DNA of 8,212 bases from a bacterium (GTDB lineage: Bacteria > UBA9089 > CG2-30-40-21 > SBAY01), in contig JBFLYA010000168.1 in assembly GCA_040757115.1 (NCBI GenBank), positions 1 to 8,212 on the forward strand, given 5' to 3'. Below the pieces are notes generated by a model that was not told the origin of the DNA, ran no database searches, and saw only the letters and a list, made by a program, of their open reading frames with translations. A program made the position numbers and the translations under genes. Shown piece by piece: positions 972-8,212 of this stretch; positions within the stretch are counted from its first letter, which is position 1, and the number at the start of each line of letters is the position of its first letter.

Positions 972-1775
972 TTACAAATTATGTTCCTGAAGGAAATTGC
1001 TTGCCTTTTTTAAAAACTCTTTTTCTTCTTTAGTCAAACTATCCATTCCTTCGCTGGATATCTTATCTAATAAGGTATCAATCCGTTCTTTGATAAGACG
1101 GACTTCTATCTTTTGGTTTTCTCTCGTTTTCTCTTTTCTCTTATTTTTTGCTTCTGCAATGATTCTTGTTATTTTTTCCCAACTTAAGATATTCTTCAAA
1201 TAAAGGTATCCAACTACCATCCCACCTAAATGAGCGAAATGGCCTATGCCATCAGGTGTATGCTTTATACAGGCGAAGAACTCAATTATTCCAAAGAGGA
1301 TAACAAAGTACCTTGCCTTCATTGGAAACAATCCAAAAAGTAATATGATATTATCCGGAAACATCATTCCATAAGCGACTAATATGCCAAAAATAGCGGC
1401 TGATGCGCCAATTGAAGGGATAGTTGCATTAGGGGATAAAAGGCAGGTGGCTATTCCACCACCGATACCTGTTAAGAAGTAGTAGTGAACAAATCTCTTT
1501 GTTCCCCAGACTGCCTCGATATTAGTTCCAAACATCCATAAGGCTAACATATTGAAGAGGATATGAAAAACATCCCCATGTAAAAACATATAGGTAAAGA
1601 TTTGCCACAGCATAAATTCATGAAAAACTCGTATCGGAATTAATCCCAAAAAACCAATAAGTTGATTTAAGAAAAATAATTGGAGTATGAATATAATTCC
1701 ATTAACGATAATCAGTTTTTTTACTCCAGAAGTCAATCGATAACCAAATCCTGTTTGATAATAATATGGATACAT
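972..1775 (-). CDS. Rhomboid-family intramembrane serine protease
   Basis: This is a polytopic membrane protease of about 267 residues that would cleave substrates within the membrane. Numbered from the upstream ATG at 1787, it shows the rhomboid hallmarks: HGDVFH with H70 and N79, the catalytic serine motif GASAAIFG with S129, and the catalytic histidine in HFAHLGG, H186. Several hydrophobic helices span roughly 24-200. The C-terminal cytosolic tail is charged and ends in a segment, LDKISSEG then SLTKEEKEFL, recognisable at the end of many bacterial rhomboids. I prefer the start at 1775 (MYPYYY) because AAGG lies five bases upstream, while the ATG at 1787 has its GG directly abutting it. No attC follows the gene, so it is probably flanking chromosome rather than a cassette. 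Substrate unknown. Confidence 0.88.
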   Translation of the reverse strand: MYPYYYQTGFGYRLTSGVKKLIIVNGIIFILQLFFLNQLIGFLGLIPIRVFHEFMLWQIFTYMFLHGDVFHILFNMLALWMFGTNIEAVWGTKRFVHYYFLTGIGGGIATCLLSPNATIPSIGASAAIFGILVAYGMMFPDNIILLFGLFPMKARYFVILFGIIEFFACIKHTPDGIGHFAHLGGMVVGYLYLKNILSWEKITRIIAEAKNKRKEKTRENQKIEVRLIKERIDTLLDKISSEGMDSLTKEEKEFLKKASNFLQEHNL

Positions 1776-1852
1776 ACACCTTACCATCCTTTTGTATTCA
1801 CTTTATGTATAGCAGTTATTAATCAAAACTTTACTTAGAATGGATAGAGCCC

Positions 1853-1982: not shown

Positions 1983-1984
1983 AT

Positions 1985-2115
1985 TCTAACGATAAAGTTC
2001 AGGTGCGGCGGGGAGAATTACCACAAAAGTTTGATAGCAAGATAAAACTTTGAGAGACCACAAAACTCTGACCACGGCACAGTCCCCCGCCGTCCGCTGC
2101 AACGATTTGTTAGGC
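1985..2115 (-). repeat. attC: attC site, long family, copy 1
   Basis: On the minus strand it starts with GCCTAAC (2115-2109) and ends with CGTTAGAA (1991-1984), matching the RYYYAAC and GTTRRRY cores of integron attC sites. The inner arms CAGGTGCGGCGGGGA (2000-2014) and TCCCCCGCCGTCCGCTG (2083-2099) pair with small mismatches and an unpaired base, as attC stems do. The middle is AT-rich and has its own short inverted words (AAAGTTT/AAACTTT). It closes the restriction-modification cassette, 50 bases past the endonuclease stop. Its right end (CGCTGCAACGATTTG) differs from copies 2 and 3, as expected because each attC travels with its own cassette. Confidence 0.82.
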
Positions 2116-2165
2116 AAAAGATTCCCTCCGCCGTCTTTTCTTCCTCTTCTGAGTTGCTTCCCTTC

Positions 2166-3188
2166 TTAATAATTTAGTATTGTGTCCCCAGAATTCCCAG
2201 AATTCCCACTGATTTGTCTCTCATATGGGCCAAGGAACCGCTCACCGTTGAAATGAATGATATGGCTTGGCGCCTCAGCGATCCAGACTTCGGTCTCCCA
2301 CGCGATATCAGAAATGAATTTCGTCATAGCTCGTCGAGAGAGAAAAGCAGTCACAAAGACCAGCCCCGCCGTAGTATCTTTAAATAACTCTTTTAACTCA
2401 TTGTGTCGCTTTAGACCAATAGGTCCGTGGCTTGTAACAGCTTCGATAAGGACAAGCCAATTCTTCTTCGGTAAATGAACAATAACATCAGGCATCTTCC
2501 CGTGTTCATCCAACATCAGTCCAAGATTGAAGAGATAGTCCTTCTCTACATGTCGCTGCTTGTTGCCTGTGTCGCCAACATAGATCAGTACCCCTCCAGG
2601 AGCAAATCTTGGACAAAACTCCTCAATAATTCTTCTGATAAGCTCGTTCTGACCACCAACCGTCAGCTTTAGTTGTTGACCATCGGGGAGATTAACTGGA
2701 ATCAGATCCATTTGACGCTCCCTTGGTTCAAGCCGACGAAGCGACTCAGAGTTGTTTATGAAATTCTTCAGAGAATCATTCCACGAGTGGGAACCATACC
2801 TATGGCAAAGATTCAAGAGCGTCGGTACTACTTGATAGCGGTTATCAGGACTATTCACAGGTCTTGTAGAATCATCTGGATTCTGTATAACCAAACCCAT
2901 CTGCACAAATTGGTGAATAGTGAATCGACGCACTGTTTCTCGGGTATTCGGGGCATACTTCTTGCCGAAATGTTTCTCAAAATAATTCATCATTTCGGTA
3001 ATACCAAGCATAGGTGCCGTAGCATCTGCCCATCGCTTCCGAGTTGTCATACCCAGTAGAGCAAGAAGCGTAAGAGCAGAACGCTCGTTCTGCTGTTCTT
3101 TTGGAACCTTAATCGACTCGAGGATGTTCAGTGCTTCAGAAACTCTCTTTGCGACTCCCGTAGGTTTGCTTTGTGATCGATCAGCCAT
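2166..3188 (-). CDS. Type II restriction endonuclease, BsuBI/PstI family
   Basis: This 340-residue protein resembles the PstI/BsuBI endonucleases, which are of similar length and cut CTGCAG. The C-terminal catalytic domain shows YVGDTGNK (about 203-209), PDVIVH (233-238, D234) and LIEAVTSHGP (247-256, E249-A-V251), a PD-(D/E)xK arrangement characteristic of this family. The N-terminal half is helical and probably holds the DNA-recognition part. Its start overlaps the methyltransferase stop by eight bases (ATGGCTGA), so translation is likely coupled and the modification enzyme is made first. Homologues seem to end near FLGPY (319-322). Here a repetitive tail, SGNSGNSGDT, follows and coincides with a nine-base DNA repeat (2181-2210), suggesting the stop was replaced by repeat sequence. 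Specificity for CTGCAG is inferred from the family. Confidence 0.9.
   Translation of the reverse strand: MADRSQSKPTGVAKRVSEALNILESIKVPKEQQNERSALTLLALLGMTTRKRWADATAPMLGITEMMNYFEKHFGKKYAPNTRETVRRFTIHQFVQMGLVIQNPDDSTRPVNSPDNRYQVVPTLLNLCHRYGSHSWNDSLKNFINNSESLRRLEPRERQMDLIPVNLPDGQQLKLTVGGQNELIRRIIEEFCPRFAPGGVLIYVGDTGNKQRHVEKDYLFNLGLMLDEHGKMPDVIVHLPKKNWLVLIEAVTSHGPIGLKRHNELKELFKDTTAGLVFVTAFLSRRAMTKFISDIAWETEVWIAEAPSHIIHFNGERFLGPYERQISGNSGNSGDTILNY
2181..2210 (-). repeat. Tandem GGGAATTCT repeat at the endonuclease 3' end
   Basis: On the minus strand GGGAATTCT occurs twice in tandem and runs into GGGGACACAATACT. It encodes the SGNSGNSGDT tail of the endonuclease. The string TTCTGGGGACACAATACT resembles a repeat often met near REP-associated transposases in bacterial genomes; that resemblance is from memory and is not proven here. 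Confidence 0.45.
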
Positions 3189-4743
3189 TGTAAATAGCCT
3201 CCTTAACTATGCGATCCAGTTCATCTTGAGGCGGAAATATCTTGCCGATTCGCCGCCCAAGGAATTCAAGCTTATGCCATGATGGATACCGCAAACAACG
3301 GAGGTCGGTGGCGTTCACTTGAGTGTGTCCACTGAACTGCCGAAAATAGGAATCTACGATTGTCGAGTTCAGAAACGCAGCAAGTCCCTTTGCTCTGGTC
3401 AGTGGCAACTCCGAGTCTAAAGCATGATAATAGTTTAAGTGATTTTCAAATGCAACCTTATAAGCTGGAACGCGACGAGGGTCATATACCGCTGCCACTA
3501 TCCGACGCCGTTCCTCCTTTGCTGAAAACCTCTTTACGAGAACATAACACTTCTGCGAGACGAAAAGTTCTTCTGCCCCTGGCTCAAGCAAGATAGCATT
3601 CGGCTTGCGAGTTTGATAATTAGGCCATTCGACAAAGCCACCCCGAAGGTGACAAGGATAGATAAGTGGAGCAGTATTCTCATCTGGACAGGGACGGAGT
3701 AAGTGTTTTGCTCGAAAATCTACGATTCGTCCGGTCGAGACTGCCAAGCCAAGATCTCTAAGATTCGAATCGAGTTTTTCAATCATATTCCTGATTGAAT
3801 CTCCATTGCTATCTGGGACAATACGAATGAAGAGATGAGGATCGTCAGGCCGAATAAGATCTGTGTGATCTGTTTTTCGAATTTTCAGGTTCGAATCGTT
3901 GAGATCAAGACTTGACGAGACAATTACTTTGTCGTTGATGGCCGGCGACTTAATTGCCTGAAATACGATATTTTCTTGTAAAATTCCGTCGTCGGCGAAG
4001 GCTCGATTACGCGAATCAAATACGTGAATGCGACGGAACTGCATTTCCTTTAGAAAAAAATAGCGGAAGGGTTCAAAATAAAGTCCATTACAGAAACTCC
4101 TTGGAGTGATAGCAACCATTTCTCCACCTGGGACGAGAAGTTTAGCTGTCACTGCCAGAAAGCCAGTATATAGGTTAGTTGTCTCGAGTCCAATAGATTG
4201 AAGCAACTTTCTCTCTCGGGATTTGGTATGAATTTTCCTATAGGGTGGATTGAGGATCGCACAGTCAAATCGCTCCTTCTCTCCAGTGATAAATAAATCG
4301 CCTGTGAATGAACTAATACCTGCTTCCAGGAAGTCCTGGTCAACAATACGTGCCTCAAATTGAATGCCCGCATCTTCACTCACTCTGCGGCAGAGATCAA
4401 GTGTCTTATGGAGATATGTGTTTAACAGAGGATCTATTTCATAGGTGGTCAAGGCTATCACTTTTGGACGCTGATGCCTCCGGCAAATTGAAACTATCAA
4501 AGCGGCCGAAAGCGAGCCTACTCCAGCTCCAGGGTCAAGAATGCGGATAAAGGATTTTCTGCATTTGAACATGTCGGCCATAAATATCGCAACCGACAAA
4601 GGTGTTAAAAATTGACCCATGAGAGCACGTCGCCGAGAGTCCAGTTGAAGAGTTACTTCCCTGCGGGCGACCTCAATTGATGACAGAAGTAAATTCTCAT
4701 CTGCTTTTATAGTTTGTTCGAGAACCTTTATTTGGGTGTTCAT
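3181..4743 (-). CDS. Adenine-specific DNA methyltransferase, PstI type
   Basis: This is the modification half of the restriction-modification pair, transferring a methyl group from S-adenosylmethionine to adenine N6 in the recognition site. In numbering from the upstream ATG at 4758 it shows motif X (GQFLTPLSVAIFMADMF, 48-64), the AdoMet-binding motif I (DPGAGVGSLS, 75-84), an acidic motif II (YEIDP, 106-110), motif III (DQDFLEAG, 140-147) and the catalytic NPPY (170-173). The remaining 350 residues would hold target recognition. I choose the start at 4743 (MNTQIK) because GGAAGAAG precedes it at suitable distance, while the ATG at 4758 lacks a ribosome site; either gives about 520 residues, close to M.PstI. 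The gene begins 36 bases after an attC core and overlaps the endonuclease gene downstream, so both form one two-gene cassette. Confidence 0.9.
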   Translation of the reverse strand: MNTQIKVLEQTIKADENLLLSSIEVARREVTLQLDSRRRALMGQFLTPLSVAIFMADMFKCRKSFIRILDPGAGVGSLSAALIVSICRRHQRPKVIALTTYEIDPLLNTYLHKTLDLCRRVSEDAGIQFEARIVDQDFLEAGISSFTGDLFITGEKERFDCAILNPPYRKIHTKSRERKLLQSIGLETTNLYTGFLAVTAKLLVPGGEMVAITPRSFCNGLYFEPFRYFFLKEMQFRRIHVFDSRNRAFADDGILQENIVFQAIKSPAINDKVIVSSSLDLNDSNLKIRKTDHTDLIRPDDPHLFIRIVPDSNGDSIRNMIEKLDSNLRDLGLAVSTGRIVDFRAKHLLRPCPDENTAPLIYPCHLRGGFVEWPNYQTRKPNAILLEPGAEELFVSQKCYVLVKRFSAKEERRRIVAAVYDPRRVPAYKVAFENHLNYYHALDSELPLTRAKGLAAFLNSTIVDSYFRQFSGHTQVNATDLRCLRYPSWHKLEFLGRRIGKIFPPQDELDRIVKEAIYNG

Positions 4744-4778
4744 TATTTCTTCTTCCATTCAATTACAATCTTTATATC

Positions 4779-4845
4779 CACTAACGACCAGGTTTAGACG
4801 CGACGGTGTGTCATCGCTGACATCGTTCGGAGCGTCTTATTATGC
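4779..4845 (-). repeat. attC: attC-like site, short, unrelated to the long family
   Basis: On the minus strand it runs from GCATAAT (4845-4839, a weak RYYYAAC core) to CGTTAGTG (4786-4779). The arms AGACGC...TGTCA (4795-4814) and TGACATCG...GCGTCT (4819-4836) pair imperfectly around a four-base loop with unpaired bases, as in attC. It lies three bases after the stop of the 318-residue gene and 36 bases before the methyltransferase start, exactly where a cassette boundary is expected. Both cores depart from consensus, hence moderate confidence. Confidence 0.65.
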
Positions 4846-4848
4846 ACA

Positions 4849-5805
4849 TTAGAAAAGTGGTAAGTTGCCAGCATTCGTATCAAGTGCTTCGATTTTAGAA
4901 AAAATAATCTTCGGTTTACTTGCGTTGTAGCCACCGAAGTCGTCCAATCTGCTAATTGATCCATAAATGCGGCAATTTACGAAAATCGCATTCTTATAAT
5001 TAACAATGCTTCCCGTCTCCGGGTAACAGGCCAAAATGTGGTCCTTATACATGAATCCAAGACTATTGGTATTTTCGTTTCCTTTCGTGATGTGCCCTTC
5101 CAGAGTTACTTCCTGTCCATGAACAAGTTCTGGAAAAAGAATCTCTTCTTCGACATCGAGTGTAAAAATTCTCCGTTGTTGGTAAGGAATAGATTCTCGT
5201 ATCAATTCGCCATTCTTGTATACGCCGATTTCCAGTCTACGCTCTTCTTCAATCAGTTCCGCCATTTTCTTGAGAAGTCCAGGGTTAACAGGGATATAAA
5301 ACTCGAAGAACTTCTTTGGAATAAAAAGGTACTCCCCCTTTTGATTTGGTATTCCTATTTCGGTGTTCTCATTTCTAAACTGCGGATTTTCAAATTTCTT
5401 TCTTATTAGTCCATCCAGATGTTTGCCAATACGGATAGTCCATTGAATCGCTTCCACCGCATGAACAAAAATATCTTTTAGTCCCTTCTTCTCGAAATCC
5501 TTGTCGGCCATTTTCTTTGCAGCTGTCACTAAGTAGGTTGTTACACCAGTTGTTACACCAACACCGACGGCTCTTACAACCCAATCAATGAGGCTGGTGG
5601 GAATGAGGGCTTCCCAAGAACCTTTACGTAACCGAACAGGAATTTCGAAATCTAAATCGCGCAGTGACGGTGATTGTTGACCAACAAAAAATCGTATCGC
5701 TTCATCAAAGCCCAGTAGGGCTTGGGCTGCTTTTCGAGCATCAAGTAGACCGTCCTCGATAAGCTTCCCTTCATATTTGAGATATCCGATATATTCTTCG
5801 TCCAT
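4849..5805 (-). CDS. Cassette-encoded protein of unknown function, possible membrane segment
   Basis: I do not recognise this 318-residue protein. Three parts can be seen. Residues 1-65 are mixed, with the segment YEGKLIEDGLLDARKAAQAL and GFDEAIRFFVGQQSP, which looks like a conserved small domain. Residues 71-95 (SLIDWVVRAV to YLVTA) are hydrophobic and glycine/threonine rich and could be one membrane helix, or a buried helical hairpin. A charged helical middle (100-190) follows. The C-terminal third (about 210-308) is rich in beta-strand patterns (EVTLEGHITKG, IFVNCRIYGSI) and might be a barrel-like domain. It fills one cassette, from 20 bases after one attC to three bases before the next. 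No Shine-Dalgarno sits close to the ATG; a five-codon minicistron ends one base before it, so translation may be by reinitiation. A role in defence is possible from its company but unproven. Confidence 0.8.
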   Translation of the reverse strand: MDEEYIGYLKYEGKLIEDGLLDARKAAQALLGFDEAIRFFVGQQSPSLRDLDFEIPVRLRKGSWEALIPTSLIDWVVRAVGVGVTTGVTTYLVTAAKKMADKDFEKKGLKDIFVHAVEAIQWTIRIGKHLDGLIRKKFENPQFRNENTEIGIPNQKGEYLFIPKKFFEFYIPVNPGLLKKMAELIEEERRLEIGVYKNGELIRESIPYQQRRIFTLDVEEEILFPELVHGQEVTLEGHITKGNENTNSLGFMYKDHILACYPETGSIVNYKNAIFVNCRIYGSISRLDDFGGYNASKPKIIFSKIEALDTNAGNLPLF

Positions 5806-5806
5806 T

Positions 5807-5821
5807 CTATTGAAGCCTCAT
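5807..5821 (-). CDS. Five-codon minicistron (MRLQ) ahead of the unknown gene
   Basis: ATGAGGCTTCAATAG starts five bases after the attC core GTTAGGC, whose TTAGG can serve as its ribosome site. Its stop lies one base before the ATG of the 318-residue gene, in another frame. This is reminiscent of the short leader frames that boost translation of leaderless integron cassettes. It is inferred from spacing alone. Confidence 0.3.
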   Translation of the reverse strand: MRLQ

Positions 5822-5825
5822 TTGT

Positions 5826-5957
5826 GCCTAACGATAAAGTTCAGGTGCGGCGGGGAGAATTACCACAAAAGTTTGATAGCAAGATAAAACTTTGAGAGAC
5901 CACAAAACTCTGACCACGGCACAGTCCCCCGCCGTCAACTGCAACGCAGGGTTAGAC
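5826..5957 (-). repeat. attC: attC site, long family, copy 2
   Basis: On the minus strand it runs from GTCTAAC (5957-5951) to CGTTAGGC (5833-5826). Both cores match consensus and the CGGCGGGG/CCCCGCCG stem is intact. Over its length it is nearly identical to copies 1 and 4. It closes the cassette that has no gene and lies directly ahead of the unknown 318-residue gene. Confidence 0.85.
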
Positions 5958-6050
5958 AAAAGCTTTAATTCGCTGTTTTTTCCCTTTTCCTCTGCCTCAC
6001 CGAATTATTGTGCATTCCACATTCACGGTTTGACCCTAAAATCTCCCCTA
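5958..6050. repeat. Duplicated cassette tail, copy A
   Basis: Following attC copy 2 in plus coordinates, this stretch matches 6360-6451 almost base for base (AAAAGCTTTRATTCGCTGT, CTCTGCCTCACCGAATTATT, TGCATTCCACATTCACGGTT). With the attC, a unit of about 220 bp is duplicated: 5829-6050 and 6230-6451. On the minus strand it is the 3' end of a cassette whose gene is absent. Confidence 0.75.
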
Positions 6051-6058
6051 TTATTTTA

Positions 6059-6212
6059 CCACGAAGAGCACGAAGGTCACGAAGATTGGACAAGACAAAT
6101 CTTTTTCTGTCTTTTTTCAATCTTTCTACATTAAAATTTATTAACAAGCCAACTTTAATATTTGCTAACTTTATTAGATATTTCATCAAATTTCACTTCG
6201 TGTCCTTCGTGG
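6059..6212. repeat. Palindromic element with CCACGAAG ends
   Basis: The left end CCACGAAGAGCACGAAGG (6059-6076) is mirrored by CACTTCGTGTCCTTCGTGG (6194-6212). The interior, about 110 bp, is AT-rich and non-coding. The element fills nearly all of the third cassette upstream of the duplicated tail, ending about 15 bases from attC copy 3. This CACGAAG repeat class is common between genes in environmental bacteria. It appears to have inserted into, or replaced, the cassette body. Confidence 0.65.
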
Positions 6213-6226
6213 TTTAATCTCTTTTA

Positions 6227-6359
6227 GTCTAACGATAAAGTTCAGGTGCGGCGGGGAGAATTACCACAAAAGTTTGATAGCAAGATAAAACTTTGAGAGA
6301 CTACAAAACTCTGACCACGGCACAGTCCCCAGGCGGTCAACTGCAACGCAGGGTTAGAC
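6227..6359 (-). repeat. attC: attC site, long family, copy 3 (altered stem)
   Basis: On the minus strand it runs from GTCTAAC (6359-6353) to CGTTAGAC (6234-6227), both good cores. It matches copy 2 except for a change in one arm: TCCCCAGGCGGTC replaces TCCCCCGCCGTC (about 6326-6338), which weakens pairing with CAGGTGCGGCGGGGA. It closes the toxin-antitoxin cassette. Confidence 0.82.
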
Positions 6360-6451
6360 AAAAGCTTTGATTCGCTGTCTTTTCCTTTTCCTCTGCCTCA
6401 CCGAATTATTGTGCATTCCACATTCACGGTTGACCCTAATATCTCCCTTAC
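6360..6451. repeat. Duplicated cassette tail, copy B
   Basis: This is the untranslated 3' tail between the PIN gene stop (6485) and attC copy 3. It is nearly identical to 5958-6050, with a few substitutions and one-base indels. Its presence after a complete gene suggests this is the parental copy. Confidence 0.75.
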
Positions 6452-6484
6452 TGGTTAGAAAGTTCCCAAAATTTGTCCATATTC

Positions 6485-6892
6485 TTATCGTAACCAAAAG
6501 AATTTAACCAATTTCGCATTATCTATAGGATCGAATTCTTTATGATCAGTTGTCACAACCTTACCCTTTAAAGTTTCTGCAAGTCCAATAACGAATGCAT
6601 CTGCTAACGAAATTTGGTAAGATGCTTTATATTTTCCGACTATCTTTAGAAATTCAATAGACATATCTTCTATGTATCGGATAGGAAGTTGCTCCAAGTC
6701 ATTAAGCACTTTTTCTGCTCGTTTTATACCGTCCGCCTTGTAATATCCATAATAAACCTCACAGAGATTAATATGATGAAGATAGACATTATTATCTTTA
6801 TTTTCTAAGAGGTCTTTTACCTTTTCTCCGCCTTCTTCCGCATTGAGAAAGGCAATGACTGCACAGGCATCCAGAATAAAGGAATTCTTCAT
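6485..6892 (-). CDS. PIN-domain toxin, VapC-like ribonuclease
   Basis: This 135-residue protein is a typical single PIN domain, expected to be a metal-dependent RNase that blocks translation when freed from its antitoxin. The acidic residues that bind metal are in place: D8 in FILDAC, E45 in NLCEVYYG, D98 in SLADAFVIG and D116 in VTTDHKEFD. Its ATG shares one base with the antitoxin stop (TAATG), so the two are translationally coupled, the usual toxin-antitoxin layout with antitoxin first. The pair forms a single cassette ending at attC copy 3; such pairs are frequent stabilising cargo in large integrons. The RNA target cannot be told from the sequence. Confidence 0.88.
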   Translation of the reverse strand: MKNSFILDACAVIAFLNAEEGGEKVKDLLENKDNNVYLHHINLCEVYYGYYKADGIKRAEKVLNDLEQLPIRYIEDMSIEFLKIVGKYKASYQISLADAFVIGLAETLKGKVVTTDHKEFDPIDNAKLVKFFWLR

Positions 6893-7122
6893 TATCTATA
6901 CTCCAATTTTTTCTCTTTCGCCTTTATCTTTGTAAAAAGGTCTGTTGTAAGGCTCGATCCCTTTGTTGAACCAAAGACCTTTTCAACAGCACTTTCCCTG
7001 CCGATTTTTATTGTCAGCATTTTGGTTCGTAAAAATTCGGTAAAGTCATAGACTTCCTTCTTTTTATCGTCCGGTAGAATATCAAAAATTCGTATGAAAT
7101 CTTTTGTCAATATTGTTTCCAT
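6892..7122 (-). CDS. Antitoxin partner of the PIN toxin
   Basis: A small charged protein of 76 residues encoded directly ahead of the PIN toxin and overlapping it by one base. The N-terminal half (FIRIFDILPDDKKKEVYDFTEFLRTK) is helical and resembles the DUF2281-like or VapB-type antitoxins with the 'LP...K.EV.DF.EFL' pattern. The C-terminal half, basic and probably disordered until bound, would wrap the toxin. I choose the start at 7122 because a strong AGGAG stands seven bases upstream. A longer in-frame version starting at 7176 also has a good ribosome site, but its extra 18 residues look like the beginning of a PIN gene. Assignment rests mainly on gene order and size. Confidence 0.75.
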   Translation of the reverse strand: METILTKDFIRIFDILPDDKKKEVYDFTEFLRTKMLTIKIGRESAVEKVFGSTKGSSLTTDLFTKIKAKEKKLEYR

Positions 7123-7176
7123 TGCTTTCTCCTTTCTAAAAACCGAAGTTTCTAGATAAATACTATTTTTCTTCAT
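7123..7176 (-). pseudogene. Remnant of a PIN-gene start, in frame with the antitoxin
   Basis: The ATG at 7176, preceded by AGAGAGG at five bases, encodes MKKNSIYLETSVFRKEKA before reaching the antitoxin ATG. MKKNSIYLETSVF is the usual N-terminus of many PIN-domain toxins, whose first acidic residue lies in this I-Y-L-(D/E)-T-S motif. The rest of that gene is missing. Either it is a deletion scar, or the extended antitoxin is a real product. Only 13-14 residues carry the resemblance. Confidence 0.45.
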
Positions 7177-7208
7177 CTGATCCTCTCTTTATGCTCTTTA
7201 TCTCTTTA

Positions 7209-7226
7209 ATAGTTAGGATACTATAT
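7209..7226 (-). promoter_or_regulatory. Possible promoter/operator of the toxin-antitoxin cassette
   Basis: On the minus strand TATAGT (7225-7220) could be a -10 box; no convincing -35 lies at standard spacing. It overlaps an inverted repeat ATAGT-N6-ACTAT (7209-7224), as would suit autorepression by the toxin-antitoxin complex. Toxin-antitoxin cassettes usually carry their own promoter. Weak evidence. Confidence 0.25.
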
Positions 7227-7279
7227 TGTCTTTCTCTTCTCAAGCATCATTTTCTATGACAAGGAAGTTTTGTTTGGAT

Positions 7280-7351
7280 GTCTAACGACTAAGCTCACCG
7301 GCGGCAATGGAGCGCAGCGGAATTGCCGTCCGGTGCAGCGCCTTGTTAGCC
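7280..7351 (-). repeat. attC: attC site, short classical type
   Basis: On the minus strand it runs from GGCTAAC (7351-7345) through AAGGCGCTGCACCGG to CGTTAGAC (7287-7280). The arms CACCGGCGGCAAT (7296-7308) and ATTGCCGTCCGGTG (7322-7335) pair perfectly except for one unpaired base, the hallmark extrahelical base of attC. The TAA stop of the glycosylase gene lies inside the first core. At 72 bp it has the size and look of attC sites from proteobacterial integrons and is unlike the long family here. Confidence 0.92.
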
Positions 7352-8107
7352 ATTCTCATTCTGTTTCGCAGTTGGGCAAAGGTCTTTCATGTAGCAGTCG
7401 CCACATACTGGGCCGTCTGACTTACACCAGTTTCTGCCTATCTCCCAGCATGGCAAGTCCATCATTCCTGGGAACTCTGGATAAAGTGCCCGTGCCCTGT
7501 CTATCACTTGTTCAACGGTAACGTCGGCGGAACATAGACCAAGTCGGGAGAAGACTCGACATACATGTACATCCGCTGAGATGTCAATTGAGGAGTAGTC
7601 CGAAAAGGGAATCTTGAAATCGCGTGCGAGAATATTGGCGGCCATGCTACCGATTTTGGGACCAACCCCTTCGAATTCCCGGAAACGATATACAACCTCC
7701 GCACTGGAAGGCTTGCCTTTCCAGATAATGGCAGCATCACCCTCATAGTCGTTCTTGATTCGCTGCACCGCTGAATAGAAGTGATCGGTCATCGTGTCAA
7801 CGAACCGATGGAGAGGTTCCGGTTCCCTCATGAGACGTTTCACATCTTGCCGCGATAGTTCACTCATCCTTTGCACCGAAAACCCGCCGATCTTCTGCGA
7901 AATGCGATATGGAATCAGCCATGCTCTCTCCGCTCTGACTTGACGATCCATGAGGCATGCTAGGACGAAAGCATGCGGATGATTGTCCAGGTCATTCAGC
8001 AAGGCATCGGCCTGTGGTTCCTTGGTGAAGGTAATCAGCTGCTTCGGCGCGCGGAACAATATTTGCCCGTGTTCAACCAGTCTGTCGCGTATTGATTTCT
8101 CGCTCAT
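7346..8107 (-). CDS. Endonuclease III-like HhH-GPD DNA glycosylase with 4Fe-4S loop
   Basis: This 253-residue protein belongs to the base-excision-repair superfamily that removes damaged or mismatched bases. The helix-hairpin-helix FEGVGPKIGSMAANIL (145-160) contains K151 at the place of the lyase lysine of endonuclease III. DVHVCRVFSRLGL (179-191) carries D179 at the place of the catalytic aspartate. Four cysteines, C228-x6-C235-x2-C238-x5-C244, match the iron-sulfur loop spacing of endonuclease III exactly. The first 130 residues are longer than usual and divergent, so substrate is unknown. The start at 8107 has AGGAG five bases upstream, formed by the end of the attC core. The stop lies within the downstream attC, so the gene fills its cassette completely. 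Its base composition is more GC-rich than the neighbouring toxin-antitoxin cassette, which fits separate origins. Confidence 0.87.
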   Translation of the reverse strand: MSEKSIRDRLVEHGQILFRAPKQLITFTKEPQADALLNDLDNHPHAFVLACLMDRQVRAERAWLIPYRISQKIGGFSVQRMSELSRQDVKRLMREPEPLHRFVDTMTDHFYSAVQRIKNDYEGDAAIIWKGKPSSAEVVYRFREFEGVGPKIGSMAANILARDFKIPFSDYSSIDISADVHVCRVFSRLGLCSADVTVEQVIDRARALYPEFPGMMDLPCWEIGRNWCKSDGPVCGDCYMKDLCPTAKQNENG

Positions 8108-8112
8108 TTGTA

Positions 8113-8117
8113 CTCCT
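8113..8117 (-). promoter_or_regulatory. Shine-Dalgarno formed at the attC junction
   Basis: GTTAGGAGTACAAATG places AGGAG five bases from the glycosylase ATG. The TTAGG part belongs to the attC core at the upstream cassette boundary, so the ribosome site straddles the recombination joint. Confidence 0.6.
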
Positions 8118-8212
8118 AACGATAAAGTTCAGGTGCGGCGGGGAGAATTACCACAAAAGTTTGATAGCAAGATAAAACTTTGAGAGACCACAAAACTCTG
8201 ACCACGGCACAG
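8114..8212 (-). repeat. attC: attC site, long family, copy 4 (cut by window edge)
   Basis: It matches the other long copies from the core CCTAACGATAAAGTTCAGG through ACCACGGCACAG at the last base. The remaining 33 or so bases, including the other core, lie beyond the window. It belongs to the preceding cassette, whose gene is not visible. Confidence 0.8.

Follow-up and report, generated by a model that had tools for sequence, protein, structure and literature searches.

The closest described counterparts of the system reported here are the sedentary chromosomal integrons of Vibrio and Xanthomonas, with which it has in common an intI gene divergent from the cassette array, an attI site, a Pc promoter, many near-identical lineage-type attC sites, toxin-antitoxin and restriction-modification cargo, and gene-less cassettes. 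Inactivated intI genes are common in Xanthomonas, according to the available part of one report (PMC12444791), and more than one intI was counted in 22% of the intI-bearing genomes of RefSeq (PMC9024848, likewise available in part). In archaeal metagenome-assembled genomes (MAGs), as far as the accessible portion of a further study shows, the attCs of a single MAG can number as many as 107 and be spread across more than 18 contigs (PMC9668308). In Delta-attI cassettes of class 1 and class 2 integrons, as far as the available text of PMC12901181 goes, a partial attI replaces the attC at the cassette 3' end.

The window, that is, the whole stretch of DNA analyzed, is an entire contig (C168) of 8,212 bp from a draft genome, a MAG of 4.32 Mb in 462 contigs that is 99.87% complete and 1.41% contaminated. 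As a whole it is best explained, with a probability of about 0.9, as the distal end of a cassette array that is part of a large chromosomal integron system carried by a member of an uncultured bacterial phylum. The array proper occupies positions 1984 to 8212, and positions 1 to 1983 are a flank with a rhomboid gene and dispersed repeats. Sites were searched with covariance models of long sites (R1) and short sites (R2), both of which include window sites, and with a model built without any window sequence (R3). The features of the window are as follows.

8114 to 8212, minus strand: attC of long type 1, cut by the contig end, with the R' box GTTAGGA kept; 98 nt shared with the 5827 site at 100% identity, partial R1 match
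7346 to 8107, minus strand: cassette gene for an HhH-GPD DNA glycosylase-like protein of 253 amino acids (NCBIfam TIGR03252, 3e-20; Pfam HhH-GPD, 8.7e-5; both below the curated cut-offs)
7280 to 7351, minus strand: attC of the classical 72-nt type (R3, E 1e-14; DNA fold z about -3 on both strands)
6892 to 7176, minus strand: cassette gene for a VapB-like antitoxin (DUF2281, profile match)
6485 to 6892, minus strand: cassette gene for a VapC-like PIN toxin (Pfam PIN, 1.5e-17)
6360 to 6447, minus strand: conserved extension of about 88 nt at a cassette 3' end, upstream of R'' (gene-side homology between copies; 40 genome matches)
6227 to 6359, minus strand: attC of long type 1 (R1, E 1.3e-34; in the R1 training set)
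5958 to 6226, minus strand: cassette without an intact gene, made of an extension (5958 to 6050) and a likely GxxExxY/PDDEXK_3 gene remnant (PF13366 C terminus, 0.0019, below cut-off)
5826 to 5957, minus strand: attC of long type 1 (R1, E 1.7e-39; in the R1 training set)
4849 to 5805, minus strand: cassette gene for a 318-amino-acid protein that matched nothing in Pfam, NCBIfam or PADLOC
4779 to 4854, minus strand: possible decayed attC (R' GTTAG, R'' CTAAT; 6.3 bits, not supported by the models)
3181 to 4758, minus strand: cassette gene for an Eco57I-like type II DNA methyltransferase (PADLOC MTase_II, 5.6e-150; Pfam Eco57I, 4.4e-12)
2166 to 3188, minus strand: cassette gene for a BsuBI/PstI-type restriction endonuclease (Pfam, 2.9e-62 and 1.8e-48; PADLOC REase_II, 4.4e-133)
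1984 to 2115, minus strand: attC of the long type, last of the array, a hybrid with a type 1 left arm and a type 3 right arm (R1, E 7.3e-38; in the R1 training set)
972 to 1787, minus strand: rhomboid protease gene in the distal flank outside the array, with no attC between it and the contig start (Pfam Rhomboid, 1e-34)

On the coding strand, each complete site reads R'' (GTCTAAC or similar), spacer, L'', loop, L', spacer and R' (GTTAG..), with one extra base at each of two places in the 5' arm that correspond to the usual bulged bases of an attC and with a bottom strand that can fold. The long-family attC measures about 131 nt, and a repeat search of the window found its shared 98-nt sequence at 1985, 5827, 6228 and 8115 with 98 to 100% identity, the short site at 7280 being related to this family. 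Four long sites (1984 to 2115, 5826 to 5957, 6227 to 6359 and 8114 to 8212) thus form one family, as the sequence-only reading had proposed. That reading had counted six imperfect palindromes, of which five are real attCs; the sixth, probably the one at 4779 to 4854 (CTAAC...ATTAG), gave only a 6-bit partial match to the covariance models. Its R' looks intact, but its R'' is mutated and its stem is short; given no more than this partial match, a decayed site is the most that it can be. The genes and their junctions were also as described there. All of the main genes share the minus strand, which is what a cassette array calls for, and gene ends abut or overlap the sites: the stop codon TAA of the HhH-GPD gene falls inside R'' (GGCTAAC) of the 7280 to 7351 site and its ATG stands 6 nt past the R' box GTTAGGA of the 8114 site, junctions that are typical of gene cassettes.

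Support for the long sites comes from covariation, arrays and context, because their simple DNA folds alone are weak (z -0.05 to -2.5). In an alignment of 28 diverse long sites drawn from the genome, R/L pairing occurred in 95% of cells, compared with 34 to 53% when the partner strand was slid, and the covariation score lay above all 500 shuffles and all slid controls. The long family has 35 double-sided changes in its pairing and three arm types that differ by largely compensating changes (CAGGTG.../CAACTG, CACCTG.../CAGGTG and CAGCGG.../CCGCTG). The models recovered the window sites and, genome-wide, about 153 attC matches on 43 contigs (133 with R1 and 20 further ones with R2, a handful being weak or partial), which stand in oriented arrays; about 45 copies are 94 to 100% identical, so that many cassettes carry lineage-type attCs. 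At loci around IntI genes of other phyla, which served as validation, all 12 R1/R2 matches (10 distinct sites) lay 5' of intI in divergent orientation. The genome does have other dispersed repeats, and the palindromes might be taken for ordinary repeats of that kind or for terminators. This was refuted by the R and L boxes with two bulged bases, the covariation, the array orientation, attI and IntI, and its probability is negligible; an attC fold is present, and the repeats are not scattered between convergent genes with no integrase.

Some sites depart from the common pattern. Hybrid attCs with left and right arms of different types and with stem mismatches were found at 1984 to 2115 of the window and at L052 194-325, which suggests gene conversion or homologous recombination between sites. 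At one end of C93 (L049 11336-14276), three attCs are opposite to the other attCs in orientation; either two arrays meet there or an inversion occurred. Other repeats lie in the flank, outside the array. A repeat of about 23 nt (AATTTTTCCACCTGTGCGGTTAGA) occurs three times in both orientations (635 to 657, 796 to 820 and 1853 to 1876), and a similar string was seen near an attI-B site on C30. Inverted repeats of 37 and 30 nt (TAGTGTCGTGTTGAACAA... and CTGGTAACTGGTGATTGGTAACTGG) at 241 to 428 are possibly a small mobile or REP-like element. An Rfam search of the window gave zero matches at E values up to 1.

The cargo of the window consists of a BsuBI/PstI-type restriction-modification pair, a VapBC pair, the HhH-GPD protein, the 318-amino-acid protein and a gene-remnant cassette, and other arrays carry PIN, HEPN and HepT-like, HicB, GNAT and other genes. 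Cassettes hold one or a few genes in the same orientation with the attC at the 3' end. Among 50 cassettes on six contigs, the longest open reading frame (ORF) was on the expected strand in 38 and on the opposite strand in 6 (p about 1e-6), and 9 had no coding-strand ORF of at least 50 amino acids. The repeat CCACGAAGAGCACGAAGG... together with the likely GxxExxY/PDDEXK_3 gene remnant was observed in two cassettes on different contigs (window 6053 to 6218 and L063 from about 2180).

Neither an integrase nor an attI is present in the window, the contig ends inside an attC, and physical linkage of the window to an attI is absent. The search for an integrase suggested by the sequence-only reading was answered on another contig of the same genome, C39, which has the canonical layout of intI, attI, Pc and array with cassettes divergent from intI. 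IntI-A (460 amino acids; C39 13616-14995, minus strand) matches TIGR02249 with 368.6 bits, over the cut-off, and aligns at 2.3e-70 with IntI4 (2A3V), an integrase of solved structure; the alignment includes the catalytic residues R, K, H, R, H and Y as well as the IntI-specific insert. At its N terminus the protein is extended by about 140 amino acids, and two Phage_int_SAM_4 stretches suggest a duplicated SAM-like domain. Full-length relatives were found in records of Desulfobacterota, Nitrospirota and Brocadiales. The intI promoter on C39 is a perfect sigma-70 promoter (TTGACA-17-TATAAT), and Pc, in the opposite direction, is an extended -10 promoter (TTGACT-18-TAAAAT); past it follow a GTTAGAC core, the first gene and, 686 bp further, its attC.

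Model R1 found matches in 16 of the 18 other genomes of the same phylum that it was run on, compared with 3 of 42 genomes beyond it, and five of those phylum members, besides the genome of the window, have an IntI over the cut-off. Public records assigned to the same phylum by identical hit lists are JAHIZN01 (Modern_marine.mb.176), JAGUXG01 (DeMMO4_10) and DYDG01. A locus of the last (L074, DYDG01000068.1), deposited as Marinifilum sp., falls in the order of the window by its hit list, and the Marinifilum label of DYDG01 is probably wrong. Searches of plasmid and phage records with the attC plus its extension, and of viral contigs with the attC core pattern, gave no match.

The window, like many other contigs of the genome, is an array without intI, and as an attC cluster without a nearby integrase it could be a CALIN, an array that has lost its integrase, with no working integron left in the genome. 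Most integrase copies of the genome are indeed broken, and three phylum members (G009, G014 and G017) have attCs with no IntI over the cut-off. We nevertheless regard a CALIN of this kind as unlikely: an intact IntI-A with a perfect promoter, an attI and an array is found in the same genome, and attC type 1 of the window is present in the C39 array of IntI-A. Several intI-less arrays of the genome retain Pc and attI.

Thirteen attI-like sites were found in the genome, belonging to two families, attI-A (six) and attI-B (seven). The upstream region of IntI-A recurs at five other places (a second one on C39, and C329, C231, C98 and C63) with 71 to 79% identity, and the homology ends at the attI core in every copy; in five attI-A copies intI is lost just after its first codons and the Pc motif is kept. 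The attI-B sites lie on C118, C298, C116, C5, C30, C60 and C63. Shuffled attI-A queries gave a match in 0 of 20 cases. An array is present on the same contig for 10 of the 13 attI sites, and all 10 arrays are oriented as attI demands. A second integrase lineage, B, far from IntI-A in the intI tree, is represented by six broken or partial loci: the N-terminal half is missing on C30, the genes on C63 and C118 are each in two separate stretches, that on C324 has an internal deletion, and those on C114 and C116 are partial. Five of these loci group together in the tree, from which C116 was left out as too short. A full-length B-type protein is encoded in G010, of the same phylum. Because of the oriented arrays and the broken intI copies, we count in this genome bin one intact integrase and ten or more arrays headed by an attI. 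On C98 (L053 3369-4345), a PIN-like gene and a small ORF precede the attI-A copy inside the array, as if two integrons had fused after the loss of intI.

The many attI and broken intI copies could partly be an artefact if the MAG mixes related species or strains with one integron each. The assembly is in 462 contigs and the integron contigs are short, and the other attI-A copies, at their 71 to 79% identity to the C39 copy, differ as orthologues of different species might. Such mixing is improbable given the contamination estimate of 1.41%, the two attI-A copies on C39 and the co-occurrence of attI-A and attI-B on C63; moreover, attI-B and a remnant of a B-lineage intI were likewise found in the sister genome G001. 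The fragmented MAG does underlie both the multiplatform finding and the extension described below, and some integron contigs may be misbinned because they are short and often break in attC repeats.

We infer from these sequence features that IntI-A is active. Most likely it works in trans on many platforms, at attI-A and perhaps attI-B sites, because at least ten attI-plus-array units of two families are present and the other intI genes were found broken, partial or deleted. Each cassette consists of a gene or gene pair followed by an attC whose bottom strand folds into a hairpin with two bulged bases; IntI-A would be expected to cut this hairpin at the R' box, so that a cassette is joined either to an attI site or to another attC, and the promoter-like Pc kept on most platforms could express their first cassettes. 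The chromosomal integron proposed in the sequence-only reading is thereby supported, with the correction that the genome has many platforms and not one integron. Judged by its sequence, the system is a genuine chromosomal integron and belongs to a known kind. Two things make its form unusual, namely how many platforms one integrase apparently serves and the one-sided extension of the attC unit.

What sets this genome apart from integrons of the Vibrio and Xanthomonas type is that a single intact integrase accompanies ten or more attI-array platforms, which belong to two attI families; the roughly 88 conserved nt upstream of R'' may be a further difference, and the host is a member of an uncultured phylum that is represented here by draft genomes only. 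With the archaeal integrons, as reported in the available portion of that study, it shares its occurrence in a MAG and the spread of attCs over many contigs, whereas it differs in having an intact IntI-A, numerous copies of attI and some 153 attC matches, and same-phylum records are deposited as bacteria. Like the Delta-attI gene cassettes, as far as their description was available, it has attI sequences away from the intI gene and within arrays; here, however, attI-A regions of about 150 nt with Pc, several with the first intI codons, head the arrays. A narrow, partial and thus weak search of the literature turned up no genome described as having close to ten attI platforms.

Type 1 attC copies are nearly always accompanied by the conserved extension of about 88 nt upstream of R'', between the gene and the attC of the same cassette. 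Among 43 copies, homology past the attC edge on the gene side had a median length of 88 nt (quartiles, 79 to 90) in 1408 of 1806 ordered pairs, whereas on the other side, toward the next cassette, homology touching the edge was found in only 8 of 2256 pairs. The same extension-plus-attC unit is present in the sister species G001, and the extension is about 90 to 95% conserved in both species; other attC types are accompanied by related but diverged extensions. Its outer edge (coding strand GGGAGATATTAGGGTCA...) is fairly sharp and meets unrelated gene ends as well as a gene-less repeat, the latter in about 14 copies. A truncated older attC, of which the R''/L'' side survives, borders the extension in four cassettes (C118 near 9228 and 1206, C93 near 2546 and C98 near 10696). 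A general dispersed repeat was rejected: in a search of the whole genome, the extension matched next to attCs or where contigs end, and the outer motif is mostly found there. A narrow and partial literature search, again weak evidence, gave no account of a conserved extension upstream of attC.

The extension and attC look like a unit of about 220 nt attached to many gene ends, and we infer that this unit was appended to different genes. The extension could instead be a functional 3' untranslated region (a terminator, small RNA or promoter) conserved by selection rather than the footprint of an appended unit. To this we give somewhat less than an even chance: the conservation in both species and the diverged related extensions beside other attC types are what it would lead one to expect, whereas no significant RNA structure was found on either strand (z -0.4 to -1.2) and the extension is joined to truncated older attCs in the four cassettes above. 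Group IIC introns are a proposed source of cassettes, and by insertion at attC they might have made the extended units. Such introns were reported with integrons in the available part of PMC7923331. In this genome, however, the sole group II reverse transcriptase to exceed the cut-off is encoded on C42, a contig where no attC was matched, and the match on C231 is weak and far below the cut-off; with no intron reverse transcriptase over the cut-off at the arrays, this source was rejected as very unlikely. The fullest form of the appended-unit reading, in which ten or more scattered attI-Pc platforms are served in trans by one integrase and new cassettes arise when a preformed tail of about 220 nt (the 88-nt extension plus the 131-nt attC) is joined to gene 3' ends, including those of cassettes that already have an attC, is tentative and, as a combination, doubtful.

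The way in which genes come by an attC has long been debated as an open problem in the biology of integrons. The approximately 45 attC copies that share an extra 88 nt on one side, together with the junctions inside older attCs, offer concrete junctions for testing models of cassette formation. If the tail-addition reading is true, the outer edge of the tail would be the footprint of cassette birth, a process that to our knowledge has never yet been observed. Integrons are hereby described in a phylum in which most sampled genomes have attCs. That many attI-Pc sites lack intI while one intact integrase is present suggests that a genome can multiply its integron platforms and serve them in trans, and surveys that pair each integrase with its own array would miss platforms served in this way.
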